A stretch of DNA of 64,000 nucleotides from the NCBI RefSeq assembly GCF_009363155.1, contig NZ_CP045302.1, positions 3,579,001 through 3,643,000 of the forward strand, written 5' to 3'. A program made the translations under genes and the position numbers. Origin of the DNA: Azotobacter salinestris. Its GTDB lineage: Bacteria > Pseudomonadota > Gammaproteobacteria > Pseudomonadales > Pseudomonadaceae. The notes under the pieces were generated by a model, which was given only the letters and a program-made list of their open reading frames with translations, did no database searches and was not told the DNA's origin. Shown here piece after piece: positions 7,617-24,704 of this stretch (positions are counted from its first letter, which is position 1; each line of letters opens with the position of its first letter).

Positions 7617-7763
7617 GCGGATCTCCGTCGGTGCCCCCGGTGCGGGGAAAGGCAGGGCAGAGCGCGCCACGCCGCGCAAAAAGGCTGCGGATGATAGCAG
7701 CTCGACGGAGCGGCGAAAATTTGCCGCAGCAATGCGGCTCGCGGAGAGTAGCGTTGACAAGCC

Positions 7764-9659
7764 CTATGGCGACCAGGTCAGCGAGAGCAGGGCGCTGCGG
7801 CCTTCCTGTTGGTACTCGTGCAGGCCGACGCTGGTGTAGAAGGGCGTGTTGGGGCGGCTGTAGAGCACCTGCGAATATTCCTTGTCCAGCAGGTTGTCGA
7901 TCTTGACCTGCCACTGCAACGCGCCGGTCATCTGCCAGCTGCCGCGCAGGCCGAGCAGGGCGTATCCCGGTATCTCGTGCTCGTTGCCTTCGTCTTCGTA
8001 GCGGCTGGACACCGCCTGCCAGCCGAGGCCGGCGGAAAAGGCGCCGAATCGGCGGTCGAGATCCAGGCTCAGGTTGCGCCTGGCCCGGCGCGGCAGGGTG
8101 TGGCCGCTGTCGCGGTCGCGCGGGTCGACCAGGCTGGCGGCCAGTGCGGTCTGCCAGCCGAGGACGGTACGCGACAGGGCCAGCTCCAGCCCCTGCAGGC
8201 GCGCCCGGTCGATGTTCTCCGGATGGCTGGAGAAGCTGCCCGCCCGGCTGGTCTCGACGATCAGGTCGGCCACTTCGGTGCGGTAGGCGGACAGACTCCA
8301 GTGGGTTTTGCGGCGCTCGCCGCGCAGCTGGATCTCGTAGCTCTTCGAGCGTTCCGGCTCGAGCTCGGGATTACCGCCGTGGAGCGGGGTGGGCGGAAAG
8401 TAGAGTTCACTGAAGCTCGGCGCATGGAAGCCCTCGGCGTAGCTCAGGACCAGCTCGGTGGCGTGCGCCACGTCCAGGGTCAGCGCCGCGCTCCAGCTTT
8501 CCTCACTGCCGAAGCGCTGGTTGTCGTCGTGGCGCAGGCCGACTTCGGCGCCGAAGCCATCGCCCCGGTAGCTGTGGCGGACGAAGGCCGCACGGTTCCA
8601 GCGCCGGCTTTCGTCGTAGTCGAGCTCGCTGTGCAGGCGCTCCTCGTACCACTCGGCGCCGAGCAGCAGCTGCCGGCGCGCGTCGAGCCGCAGGGTGTTG
8701 AACCAGGCCAGCGAATCCCGGTAGGTGTCGAAGCTGTAGTTGTTGATGGCGTTGTAATCGTCGCGGTTCTCGATCCGGTTCTCGAAGTGACCGACTTCGA
8801 TGCGGCTGGTCCAGGCATCGCTGGGGCGGGCCTCGAGATGGGCGGCGAGGCTGCTGACGCTGAAGCGCTCATGGAGGTCACCGGGCCTGAAGCTATAGAC
8901 GTCGTCCAGTTCGCTCTCACCGCGCTGGTCGAGCAGGTTCAGACCGGCCTGCAAGCTGTCGGTGAAGCGATGCTCGAGGGTCAGGCCGAGGGCGCGGCGG
9001 CGGAAGCCATCATGGTCGGCATCGCGTCCGCGGTCGTCGGAGCTGCGGTCGAAGCCCTGGCTCTCCACCTGGCTGACGCCGAGGTCGAAGCGGGTCTGTC
9101 CGTCGCCGCCGGACAGGCCCAACTCGCGCTCGAAGGTGCCCCGGTTGCCGACCGCCAGACGCAGGCGCGGCTGCAGGCCGGCCTCACCGCGGCGGGTGGT
9201 GATCCGGATCAGCCCGCCGATGGCATCGGCGCCGTACTGGCTGGCCAGGGGACCGCGGATCACCTCGATGCGCTCGATGCGTCCGGGGTCGAGGAGTTCC
9301 AGGCGGGCCAGGCCGGTGGCGGCAGCACTGACACGCACCCCGTCGACCAGCACCAGGGTCTGGCCGGGATTGGCGCCGCGGATGAAGGCGCCGCTCAGCG
9401 CGCCGCGCCCGCCGGCCTGGGCCATGACCACGCCGGGCACCCGGTTCAGCAGCTCCGACACGCTCTGCACCTGCAGGCGTTCGATGTCGCCGCGGGTGAA
9501 TACCGTGGCGGCGGCGCTCGTCGGCTCGCTGGGCGACTGCCGGGAGCTGATTACCTGGGCCGGCAGCCGGTAGGCCTGTGGGGCGTCGCTCGAGTCGGCG
9601 GCGAGGAGAGGGCCGGGCAGCAGCAGGAGCATGGCCGGGACAAGACGGGCCAGGCTCAT
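7764..9659 (-). CDS. btuB: TonB-dependent outer-membrane receptor, BtuB-like
   Basis: A 631-residue outer-membrane receptor. A signal peptide (MSLARLVPAMLLLLPGPLLA) is followed by a TonB-box-like stretch (QVISSR), a plug domain about 50-155 (VSELLNRVPGVVMAQAGGRG, LVLVDGVRV, RIEVIRGPLASQYGADAIGG) and a 22-strand barrel ending in an aromatic C-terminus (LLSLTWSP). Length and plug resemble the vitamin B12 receptor BtuB, but cobalamin specificity is inferred. The gene lies 117 bp downstream of dxs on the same strand. The upstream gap shows no convincing cobalamin riboswitch, which is unusual for btuB. Confidence 0.75.
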   Translation of the reverse strand: MSLARLVPAMLLLLPGPLLAADSSDAPQAYRLPAQVISSRQSPSEPTSAAATVFTRGDIERLQVQSVSELLNRVPGVVMAQAGGRGALSGAFIRGANPGQTLVLVDGVRVSAAATGLARLELLDPGRIERIEVIRGPLASQYGADAIGGLIRITTRRGEAGLQPRLRLAVGNRGTFERELGLSGGDGQTRFDLGVSQVESQGFDRSSDDRGRDADHDGFRRRALGLTLEHRFTDSLQAGLNLLDQRGESELDDVYSFRPGDLHERFSVSSLAAHLEARPSDAWTSRIEVGHFENRIENRDDYNAINNYSFDTYRDSLAWFNTLRLDARRQLLLGAEWYEERLHSELDYDESRRWNRAAFVRHSYRGDGFGAEVGLRHDDNQRFGSEESWSAALTLDVAHATELVLSYAEGFHAPSFSELYFPPTPLHGGNPELEPERSKSYEIQLRGERRKTHWSLSAYRTEVADLIVETSRAGSFSSHPENIDRARLQGLELALSRTVLGWQTALAASLVDPRDRDSGHTLPRRARRNLSLDLDRRFGAFSAGLGWQAVSSRYEDEGNEHEIPGYALLGLRGSWQMTGALQWQVKIDNLLDKEYSQVLYSRPNTPFYTSVGLHEYQQEGRSALLSLTWSP

Positions 9660-20669: not shown

Positions 20670-22190
<1,521 letters not shown>

Positions 22191-22263
22191 GGAGGATTCT
22201 CCTGATTCTTGTGGTTCTTGGATTTTCTGGGGAGTGCGCAAGAGCACGTCTGCGAATGATTAA

Positions 22264-22279
22264 AGCAGGAGGTGTGCCA
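22264..22279 (-). promoter_or_regulatory. Sigma-54 (-24/-12) promoter of exaC
   Basis: Minus strand TGGCACACCTCCTGCT: GG at the -24 element and GC at the -12 element with the required spacing, matching TGGCAC-N5-TTGC at all but one base of the core. Predicted start of transcription is near 22252, about 60 bases before the exaC ATG. The divergent activator carries a sigma-54 contact motif, which supports the call. Confidence 0.75.
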
Positions 22280-22344
22280 AGGTGCCGCAACCCCAATGCC
22301 TGTGCGGATTTGCCGCGGTTGGCCGGGTTTGTGTCGGAGCTTTC

Positions 22345-22425
22345 TGTGACAGGGCTGAAACAGGGGCGTGACACTTTGTCCCATAAGCTTGACAGTGACG
22401 CCCGAGGTCGGACGTGACGCCATTG
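22345..22425. promoter_or_regulatory. Candidate activator-binding region upstream of the sigma-54 promoter
   Basis: Between about 65 and 160 bp upstream of the promoter lie an inverted repeat GGGCGT (22364-22369) / ACGCCC (22398-22403), an inner TGTC/GACA dyad (22377-22380 / 22391-22394) and two direct copies of GTGACGCC (from 22396 and 22414). This is the usual distance for enhancer sites of NtrC-type activators. Which copies bind is unknown. Confidence 0.4.
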
Positions 22426-22462
22426 CAAAGCCGCCCCGGCTGGACGATGCTGTGCGGTCAAC

Positions 22463-22743
22463 AGGGGGTGTTGACGTTTTGGCGTAGGCCGCGACGGAGG
22501 CCCGTTTGGCGCAGAACAAGGAACGAGGAGCGAAGTTTGGTCGTTCCAAATGAACGACGAGCGACGCCGTGCTGCGCCAAACGGACCCCGTCCCTGCGGG
22601 TGGGGCCGCCGAGGCTGCGCGTCAAATGCCGCCATGCGGCGTTGCGGGTCTTGGCAAGGGAATGACCATTGCCGGCGACCCGCGCCTTGCCTGGCGGCAT
22701 TTGACGCGGCAACGCGGCTCACGCCACAACGTCAACACCCCCT
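22463..22743. repeat. 281-bp nested palindromic element (MITE-like or structured RNA)
   Basis: Terminal inverted repeats of 31 bp (22463-22493 and 22713-22743, 28 of 31 matching) enclose two further hairpins. Hairpin A: 22502-22514 with 22572-22584, 13 bp perfect, extendable to 16 bp with one mismatch, and inside it GGAACGA/TCGTTCC (22520-22526 / 22541-22547). Hairpin B: 22618-22633 with 22693-22708, 16 bp perfect, with inner stems 22644-22650/22677-22683 and 22653-22657/22669-22673. The whole can fold as a cloverleaf. No transposase frame and no obvious target duplication were seen. It lies in the leader of the activator gene. Confidence 0.85.
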
Positions 22744-22778
22744 ACGGGAGCTGCCCGCCGATCAACGCGGAGACAACA

Positions 22779-24704
<1,926 letters not shown>

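Follow-up and report, generated by a model that had tools for sequence, protein, structure and literature searches.

What is a 281-bp nest of palindromes doing immediately ahead of a regulatory gene? The element occupies positions 22463..22743 (A to T inclusive, as bounded by its repeats, its genome copies and an empty-site comparison) of the window, the whole 64,000-nucleotide stretch of Azotobacter salinestris DNA that was analysed. A first-pass annotation had placed it between a sigma-54 promoter and its activator gene and had offered two explanations: a non-autonomous mobile element (MITE) with its transposase elsewhere, or a structured 5' leader that controls the activator. It had proposed BLAST within the genome, inspection of syntenic strains for an empty site and folding with covariation analysis as checks, and had named a single-copy sequence without compensating changes as the outcome that would speak against both.

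A multicopy element upstream of a sigma-54 activator gene

Protein search identified the downstream gene (22779..24704, plus strand) as a sigma-54 dependent activator with GAF, AAA+ and Fis-type HTH domains. Between the end of the right arm (22743) and the ATG (22779) lie the 35 bp originally reported, and the element is probably placed just upstream of this gene, in its leader. On the other side, a divergent aldehyde dehydrogenase gene (20670..22190, minus strand; ORF and protein search) is preceded by a sigma-54 (-24/-12) type promoter-like site at 22264..22280 on the minus strand. This site, TTGGCAC-N5-CTGCT, was the only zero-mismatch match of the pattern scan in the window; with up to one mismatch the scan returned 2 matches compared to 1.0 expected, and is not significant alone. 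The described placement was borne out with this proviso on the promoter.

The terminal inverted repeats (TIRs) are 31 nt long and 90% complementary (22463..22493, plus strand, pairing with 22713..22743, minus strand). They enclose two pairs of inner arms, 22499-22517/22569-22587 (19 nt, 89% complementary) and 22618-22637/22689-22708 (20 nt, 95% complementary), reproducing the repeats that had been claimed. Folded as single-stranded DNA, the 281 nt reached -110.9 kcal/mol compared to -66.0 +/- 4.1 for shuffled sequences (z -10.8), and as RNA -185.1 compared to -124.6 +/- 5.5 (z -11.1), with 0/200 shuffles as good in either case. Mechanical ORFs run across the element, and the activator frame stays open upstream as far as 22569; full-length copies differ by 14-15 bp insertions, so any reading frame through the element would be shifted.

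BLAST against the A. salinestris genome (5.29 Mb, 3 contigs; G000 in locus labels) returned 15 full-length copies of 266-296 bp with 85-100% identity, besides many partial ones. The other 14 full-length copies are located elsewhere, in both orientations. At the window locus the site was empty in all three congeneric genomes (G001, G002 and G003), each of which retains the intergenic region and the activator gene; the empty sequence reads GGTCAC-TA-CGGG in G001 and G002 and GGTCAG-TA-CGGG in G003. Evolution as a structured leader RNA for control of the activator would agree with the position 35 bp upstream of the ATG and with the very stable RNA fold. However, the same leader lacks the element in every congener although the gene is present, the sequence recurs at 14 other places, and no Rfam family came near its gathering score (the best match, to an animal miRNA family, scored 25.7 bits compared to 100). 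We regard a leader evolved for this gene as hardly credible, and this half of the original proposal was not supported.

For ten further copies the flanks were joined in silico and searched against genomes of the genus. Alignments spanning the junction were obtained for eight of them (L002, L003, L004, L009, L010, L011, L013 and L014). The junction was gap-free in every alignment for four (L002, L003, L010 and L013), and short gaps or imprecise junctions occurred in at least one alignment for L004, L009, L011 and L014. No empty site for L006 or L008 was found among the genus genomes searched with joined flanks, and the L013 site is occupied in G003.

TA is found at both ends of 10/15 full copies, and the remaining five have one of the four bases changed. 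At clean empty sites the join matches their length when exactly two bases are counted as duplicated. The empty site is TA at the window locus (3/3 genomes), L002 (2/2), L013 (2/2) and L014 (1/2). It is not TA at L003 (TG, 3/3) or L010 (GC or GA, 3/3), nor in the alignments of L009 and L011, where the junction is partly gapped or imprecise. A 2-bp TA is the best reading of the target, allowing that the site has changed in certain lineages or that some targets were other than TA. Judged by the empty sites of the congeners, the left target dinucleotide of the window copy (22462..22463) has decayed from TA to CA, the right one (22743..22744) remains TA, and the element proper, given a TA duplication, spans 22464-22742. 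At the L013 junction the target TA apparently belongs to a stop codon lying upstream (CGC TAA GGAG..ATG); the element begins GGG after TA, so insertion there would regenerate a TAG stop.

The feature is short and multicopy, carries TIRs and no transposase gene, has empty orthologous sites and a target duplication, and shares its ends with an autonomous partner (described below). On these sequence features, its mobility as a non-autonomous element is well supported, and the mobile half of the original proposal, including a transposase located elsewhere, stands.

The folded interior and its distribution

The two internal hairpins had been described as independent. Two hairpins are indeed present, but consensus and model comparisons indicate that they are homologous, the interior being an inverted dimer of one module of ~90 nt. 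Arm A (22499..22587, plus strand; covariance model R1) has the inner-part family consensus AAGGCGCGAGGAG..TTTGGTCATTCCAAATGAACGACGAGCAACGC. Arm B (22617..22710, minus strand) is a second, inverted copy of the same module, recognised by consensus similarity and by an arm A model match. In the alignment of copies they are separated by a central linker (22588..22616) with a small CCCGTCCCTGCGGG hairpin; a 14-bp insertion in this linker (22602-22615) is present in some Azotobacter-type copies and absent from others.

The consensus of arm A scored 69.5 against the reverse complement of arm B, compared to 30.7 +/- 6.4 for shuffled sequences (0/5000), and the inner parts of the two consensus sequences scored 48.5 compared to 12.3 +/- 5.4 (0/5000). 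In the window copy alone the signal was weak (45.5 compared to 27.2 +/- 6.5, largest shuffle 49.0). A model of a palindromic arm inevitably scores that arm's opposite strand as well, which for R1 sets a baseline of 27-35 bits. In the window copy R1 scored 54.0 bits on arm B (E 1.9e-10); of 10 loci searched, 6 gave arm B matches of 48-54 bits, and there was one further match of 20.8 bits. The arm B model (R2) did not discriminate, matching arm A at 42-52 bits compared to its own baseline of 33-47. The arm A model also matched a neighbouring opposite-strand arm in 51/69 loci (E up to 1e-4), usually 17 nt away, which makes the inverted dimer the usual form. These 69 loci were chosen from L164-L243, retrieved with an exact arm A pattern so that conservation of that stretch is partly ascertained, and from L284-L302, which come from the covariance model and are free of the exact-pattern bias, not of the model's own.

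The arm A model detected the module in 58/148 genomes and 13/19 genera of the family (E up to 1e-3), in 60/369 genomes and 51/272 genera of the class (E up to 1e-4), and in 76/398 genomes and 38/213 genera of a phylum sample, including families outside the class; these samples overlap, and the counts follow E-value cut-offs with strict filters. The exact arm A motif occurred, among the matches listed, in Pseudomonas, Azotobacter (including A. chroococcum DSM 2286), Chromohalobacter, Salinicola and Porticoccus, and in metagenome bins of Candidatus Thiodiazotropha, Nevskia, Exilibacterium, Cellvibrionaceae and Salinisphaerales. Four plasmid records matched (two from Azotobacter, one each from Pseudomonas aeruginosa and Halomonas), the Azotobacter chroococcum plasmid at 88% over the full length. 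Phage records and E. coli genomes gave no match, nor did IMG/VR viral contigs searched with the exact pattern.

Shortened forms accompany the full element. The window genome contains single-arm forms of 180-197 bp, one of which (185 bp) has arm B without arm A, as well as a 118-bp form and TIR-only forms of 58-69 bp, and the shortened forms end near the hairpin bases. Elsewhere, G898 has a 58-bp TIR-only form, G703 a 153-bp single-arm form and G517 forms with an extra nested hairpin. Whole-arm loss would fit slippage at hairpins formed in vivo. In G517, a distant genome (loci L350-L360), one end type was matched 227 times with no more than 2 mismatches; the element forms there measure 228-229, 267, 294 and 321 bp, and in the longer ones the extra hairpin is nested inside an arm.

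Constraint on the fold was assessed in BLAST matches that spanned 180 or more positions of the query, one per identical core (47 copies). These were reduced to 14 below 93% identity, and L012 and L112 were added, giving 16 representatives. In this alignment (A1) 95.9% of 1615 cells were paired, and sliding the partners by 1-3 columns lowered pairing to 36-40%. Two-sided changes affected 60/101 pairs and 224 cells, compared to 31.4 and 58.5 +/- 6.7 in shuffles. Together with the stability of the RNA fold, this answered the proposed covariation check positively, and the outcome named as adverse was found on neither count, the element being multicopy and its stems compensated.

A larger set, 82 of 100 sequences that passed limits on k-mer redundancy and on length, gave 6254 cells, divided into 5681 Watson-Crick, 241 G-T, 117 A-C and 215 other. 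Three pairs contribute 114 G-T and 12 A-C cells; without them the counts, 127 compared to 105, are nearly equal, so that no single RNA strand is clearly favoured. Such near-equal mispairs fit folding on both strands or a DNA cruciform, which would point to DNA; RNA from either strand is still compatible with them. The core could alternatively have been kept for an RNA function, both strands being transcribed from flanking genes and processed, for example by RNase III. The very stable RNA fold and the precedent of the Correia/NEMIS elements, as far as the accessible text of the reports describes them (PMC2229807; PMC2649163), speak for this possibility. However, no sigma-70 promoter- or terminator-like site was found in 22200-22800, and the marked G-U excess over A-C expected if one RNA strand were selected is not seen outside the three G-T-rich pairs. 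We consider an RNA function unlikely, though still to be reckoned with, and favour retention of the core as DNA.

How pairing is maintained was approached through 21 recent copies (G000-G003), in which paired columns vary less than unpaired ones (80/4367 compared to 72/1236 letters). Their private stem changes comprise 21 one-sided, 3 compensated and 1 other. Mostly one-sided private changes mean that pairing erodes in copies at rest, whereas those that spread retain it, and we infer that pairing is kept by selection during propagation. The same private changes rule out fast self-correction of the palindrome, by gene conversion between the arms, as the principal process; a better fit is that unpaired variants are lost as the element spreads.

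Two further candidates were set aside. Complementarity for a kissing interaction between the arm loops (GGTCATTCC and GGAATGACC) is kept in some A1 elements and not in others (e.g. L111 from G005, L072 and L073). A strand preference within the stems (G-T over A-C) did not hold up either: on the plus strand arm A has more G-T and arm B more A-C, and the excess comes from a few, possibly inherited pairs.

Exchangeable ends and candidate partner insertion sequences

Elements of the window genome end in (T)AGGGnCTGTTGACGTTT, with 16/18 bases identical to a co-resident IS5-family element. A scan with the end pattern recovered element-sized pairs of 859 bp (C2:192327-193185 and C2:4415280-4416138) and five of 819 bp, while an end pair of 1921 bp proved to be an 819-type element interrupted by another transposase-like gene. 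In that locus (L083, G000:C3:243846-245766) the second element has a transposase-like frame of ~349 aa, IS630-like by eye. The 859- and 819-bp elements encode IS5_3-type transposases (NF033580, E 1.9e-79 and 4.5e-83; PF13340 and PF01609), and their ends read AGGG[CG]CTGTTGACG or AGGTTCTGTTGACG. Of the first 18 bases of the window copy, 16 agree with the right end of the 859-bp insertion sequence (IS) and 14 with its left end, the two ends of this IS being unlike each other; agreement is 13 and 11 for the 819-bp ends, and 11-12 for ISs of other genomes. For the element consensus the corresponding values are 16 and 15 for the 859-bp IS (right and left), 15 and 13 for the 819-bp ends and 11-14 for foreign ISs.

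A similar correspondence was observed in two other genomes. The prevalent subfamily of G003 ends in AGGGCCTGTTAACACTACTC, and an 829-bp two-frame IS of the same genome has AGGGCCTGTTAACACTACCG, an 18/18 match. In the distant genome G290, elements with AGGGCCTGTTAACACTA lie beside five pairs of 809-810 bp with AGGGCGTGTTAACACTA; the element end there matches its own IS at 16/18 and the G003 IS at 17/18 positions. All three of the 809-810-bp pairs that were read contain IS5-type frames, and against NF033580, with its cut-off of 110, one G290 piece fell short at 103.9 bits and another passed at 129.2. In two of the G290 ISs (L347 and L348) the transposase frame continues past the IS end, so a TA target would supply the stop codon, as the available text describes for ISPsp10 (PMC4133298). 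The matching of elements to local partners would rest on these 3 genomes; among the places listed, no IS-sized pair with the local end type was noticed in G005 or in four Pseudomonas genomes.

Three further juxtapositions were recorded. In G003 an arm match (L128 515-602) stops 35 bp short of the 829-bp IS, perhaps another IS that inserted beside or into a MITE. An 819-bp IS5-type element (L081, G000:C2:818051-818869) abuts a full MITE copy starting at 818870, as if the TA of the MITE end had been its target. The window itself contains a lone degenerate end of another end type at 7746-7765 (G000:C2:3586746-3586765), AGGGCTTGTCAACGCTACTC with 3 mismatches, perhaps a remnant.

The cross-genus alignment joined one core to at least five different subterminal repeats, among them GACGTTTTGGCG, AACACTACTCC, CCCGCTTCAAACG, CCTGTTTCATTACC and CTCAATTAGTTTC. 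The terminal decamer is of the type AGGGnCTGTT, with variants including AGGGGGCGTT, AGGGTCTGAT and AGAGCCTGTC; this type is widespread across the phylum sample, while the next ~10-15 bp of the TIR are subfamily-specific. Ends were counted in 53 of the 69 loci, the others being omitted by hand, mostly as repeated same-score Pseudomonas copies. Within 2 mismatches, 94/106 ends fit AGGGNCTGTT, compared to 7/106 for the reversed pattern; both ends fit in 44 of these elements, which come from many taxa, and one end in 6. Two of the 53 (L170 and L297) have identical end sequences.

Could the element be a classical MITE, an internal deletion derivative of one IS with a neutral interior? Its ends and TA-type target are those of IS5-family elements, and other bacterial MITEs are thought to come from ISs, according to the text available of a review (PMC10969869). 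Against this, BLAST of three elements against six ISs returned the ends (up to 26 bp) and short matches at chance level only, and the arm A model found no arm within the IS sequences, its sole match (L128, 48 bits) being external and separated by 35 bp from the IS end at 637. Moreover, one core with compensatory changes recurs with different subterminal repeats across the phylum sample. We consider such an origin improbable.

REPINs and BIMEs are inverted pairs of hairpin units. The inverted pair of hairpin modules found here recalls two inverted REPs, and an element of that kind would be replicated by a REP-associated tyrosine transposase (RAYT). However, the modules measure ~90 nt, not 20-40, and are flanked by IS5-type ends and TA, which makes a REPIN-type element very improbable and sets REPINs and BIMEs apart in unit size, ends and flanks.

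The reading that we prefer, with a probability of roughly 0.86, is that the feature is one copy of a MITE mobilised in trans by IS5-family transposases of the IS427-type, TA-duplicating branch. TA flanks and a two-frame transposase, as the accessible portion of PMC4133298 describes them, suggest that the partner ISs belong to the IS427 group, and end similarity singles out particular resident IS5-type transposases as those likely to move the element.

A proposed mode of spread and comparison with known systems

In the mechanism we propose, a resident IS transposase would recognise the ~18-bp ends and insert the element at TA. The interior is not a deleted transposase gene; it consists of two inverted copies of a hairpin module that is widespread in Pseudomonadota, and a single strand would fold into a cloverleaf closed by the paired ends. 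Past the terminal decamer the outer repeat varies by lineage, resembling local IS ends in the three genomes in which an IS was found, while the core is kept. Most likely the core serves, folded on both strands or as a cruciform, as a structural DNA signal and is retained since efficient spread requires folded DNA; it could act by pairing the ends, by exposing the element as a hairpin in replication, or by binding a host protein through conserved motifs. At the window locus the copy would lengthen the activator leader by a strong double-stranded stem, and transcripts across it may be processed at the stem, by analogy with Correia elements as the available text presents them (PMC2229807).

A wider proposal is that these elements are phylum-wide parasites of transposases: their folded core, kept as a DNA structure on both strands, would be the heritable unit, and their ends would be repeatedly swapped to fit the IS5-type transposase of the host. 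We hold this tentatively, at a little short of even odds. If true, the element would outlast and outspread any single IS by changing 'engines', and the conserved module would be a functional DNA signal, read by a host protein or through recognition of the folded strand, of a kind not yet described for bacterial MITEs. The usual view of bacterial MITEs is that each derives from one IS and does not spread far. Here a core with conserved inner motifs, compensated stems and ends that can be exchanged recurs across the Pseudomonadota sample, which suggests that a MITE interior can be under selection, and the same core with different ends and transposases would offer a ready model system for the role of a folded interior in transposition. 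Locally, the case shows how, within one lineage, a sigma-54 activator gene can come to have 281 bp of structured sequence immediately upstream.

No described family had been recognised at first inspection, and this held in the collections searched: no Rfam family scored above its gathering threshold, and no description of the element family was found in the literature and RNA-family collections searched, papers outside that literature being possible. The strings AGGGCCTGTTAACA, AGGGTCTGTTGACG, GGTCATTCCAAATGA and AACGACGAGCAACGC were not found in that literature, and TGTTAACACTA occurred only in papers on unrelated subjects, judged by title and start of abstract. The word 'cloverleaf' has 0 occurrences in the available text of the review of prokaryotic MITEs (PMC10969869). 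The element is widespread, a MITE by testable features and apparently undescribed, the nearest systems having been compared mainly by description.

Among Pseudomonas MITEs, the accessible part of PMC3189936 describes two from Pseudomonas syringae: MITEPsy1, of 100 bp, with ends GGAAGGTCTGAAAAAGCC, a 4-nt CTAG/YTAA duplication and a tie to an IS5-family element, and MITEPsy2, of 228 bp, with ends GGGGGTGTAAGCC.. like those of a Tn3-family IS. By eye, the printed ends of neither match AGGGnCTGTTGACG. Coxiella QMITEs (PMC5896051) and the P. fluorescens repeat families (PMC2718517) differ in sizes, repeats or hosts, as reported in the text available of each, and are set apart by description.

ISPsp10 and other IS427-group members of the IS5 family share more. 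According to the available text of PMC4133298, they duplicate TA and have a two-frame fusion transposase, with a target-supplied stop in ISPsp10. The TA duplication, the two-frame transposase of the partner ISs and the target-supplied stop in G290 are alike by this description; those ISs, however, are autonomous, whereas the element here has no gene and an unrelated interior.

CIR repeats, as PMC2229807 describes them in the portion available, occur in Caulobacter and relatives. Like the present element, they have two long hairpin arms with a linker and are conserved between species; they are set apart by their description as ~110 bp long, without TIRs, containing GANTC and alphaproteobacterial. 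The Correia/NEMIS elements of Neisseria (107 and 155 bp) are, in the accessible text of PMC2229807 and PMC2649163, likewise small, with TIRs, TA at the ends and, in Correia transcripts, a stable stem-loop closed by the TIRs and processed by RNase III. Unlike them, judged by the description in PMC2229807, the element analysed here carries two homologous inverted arms and is spread over the phylum sample.
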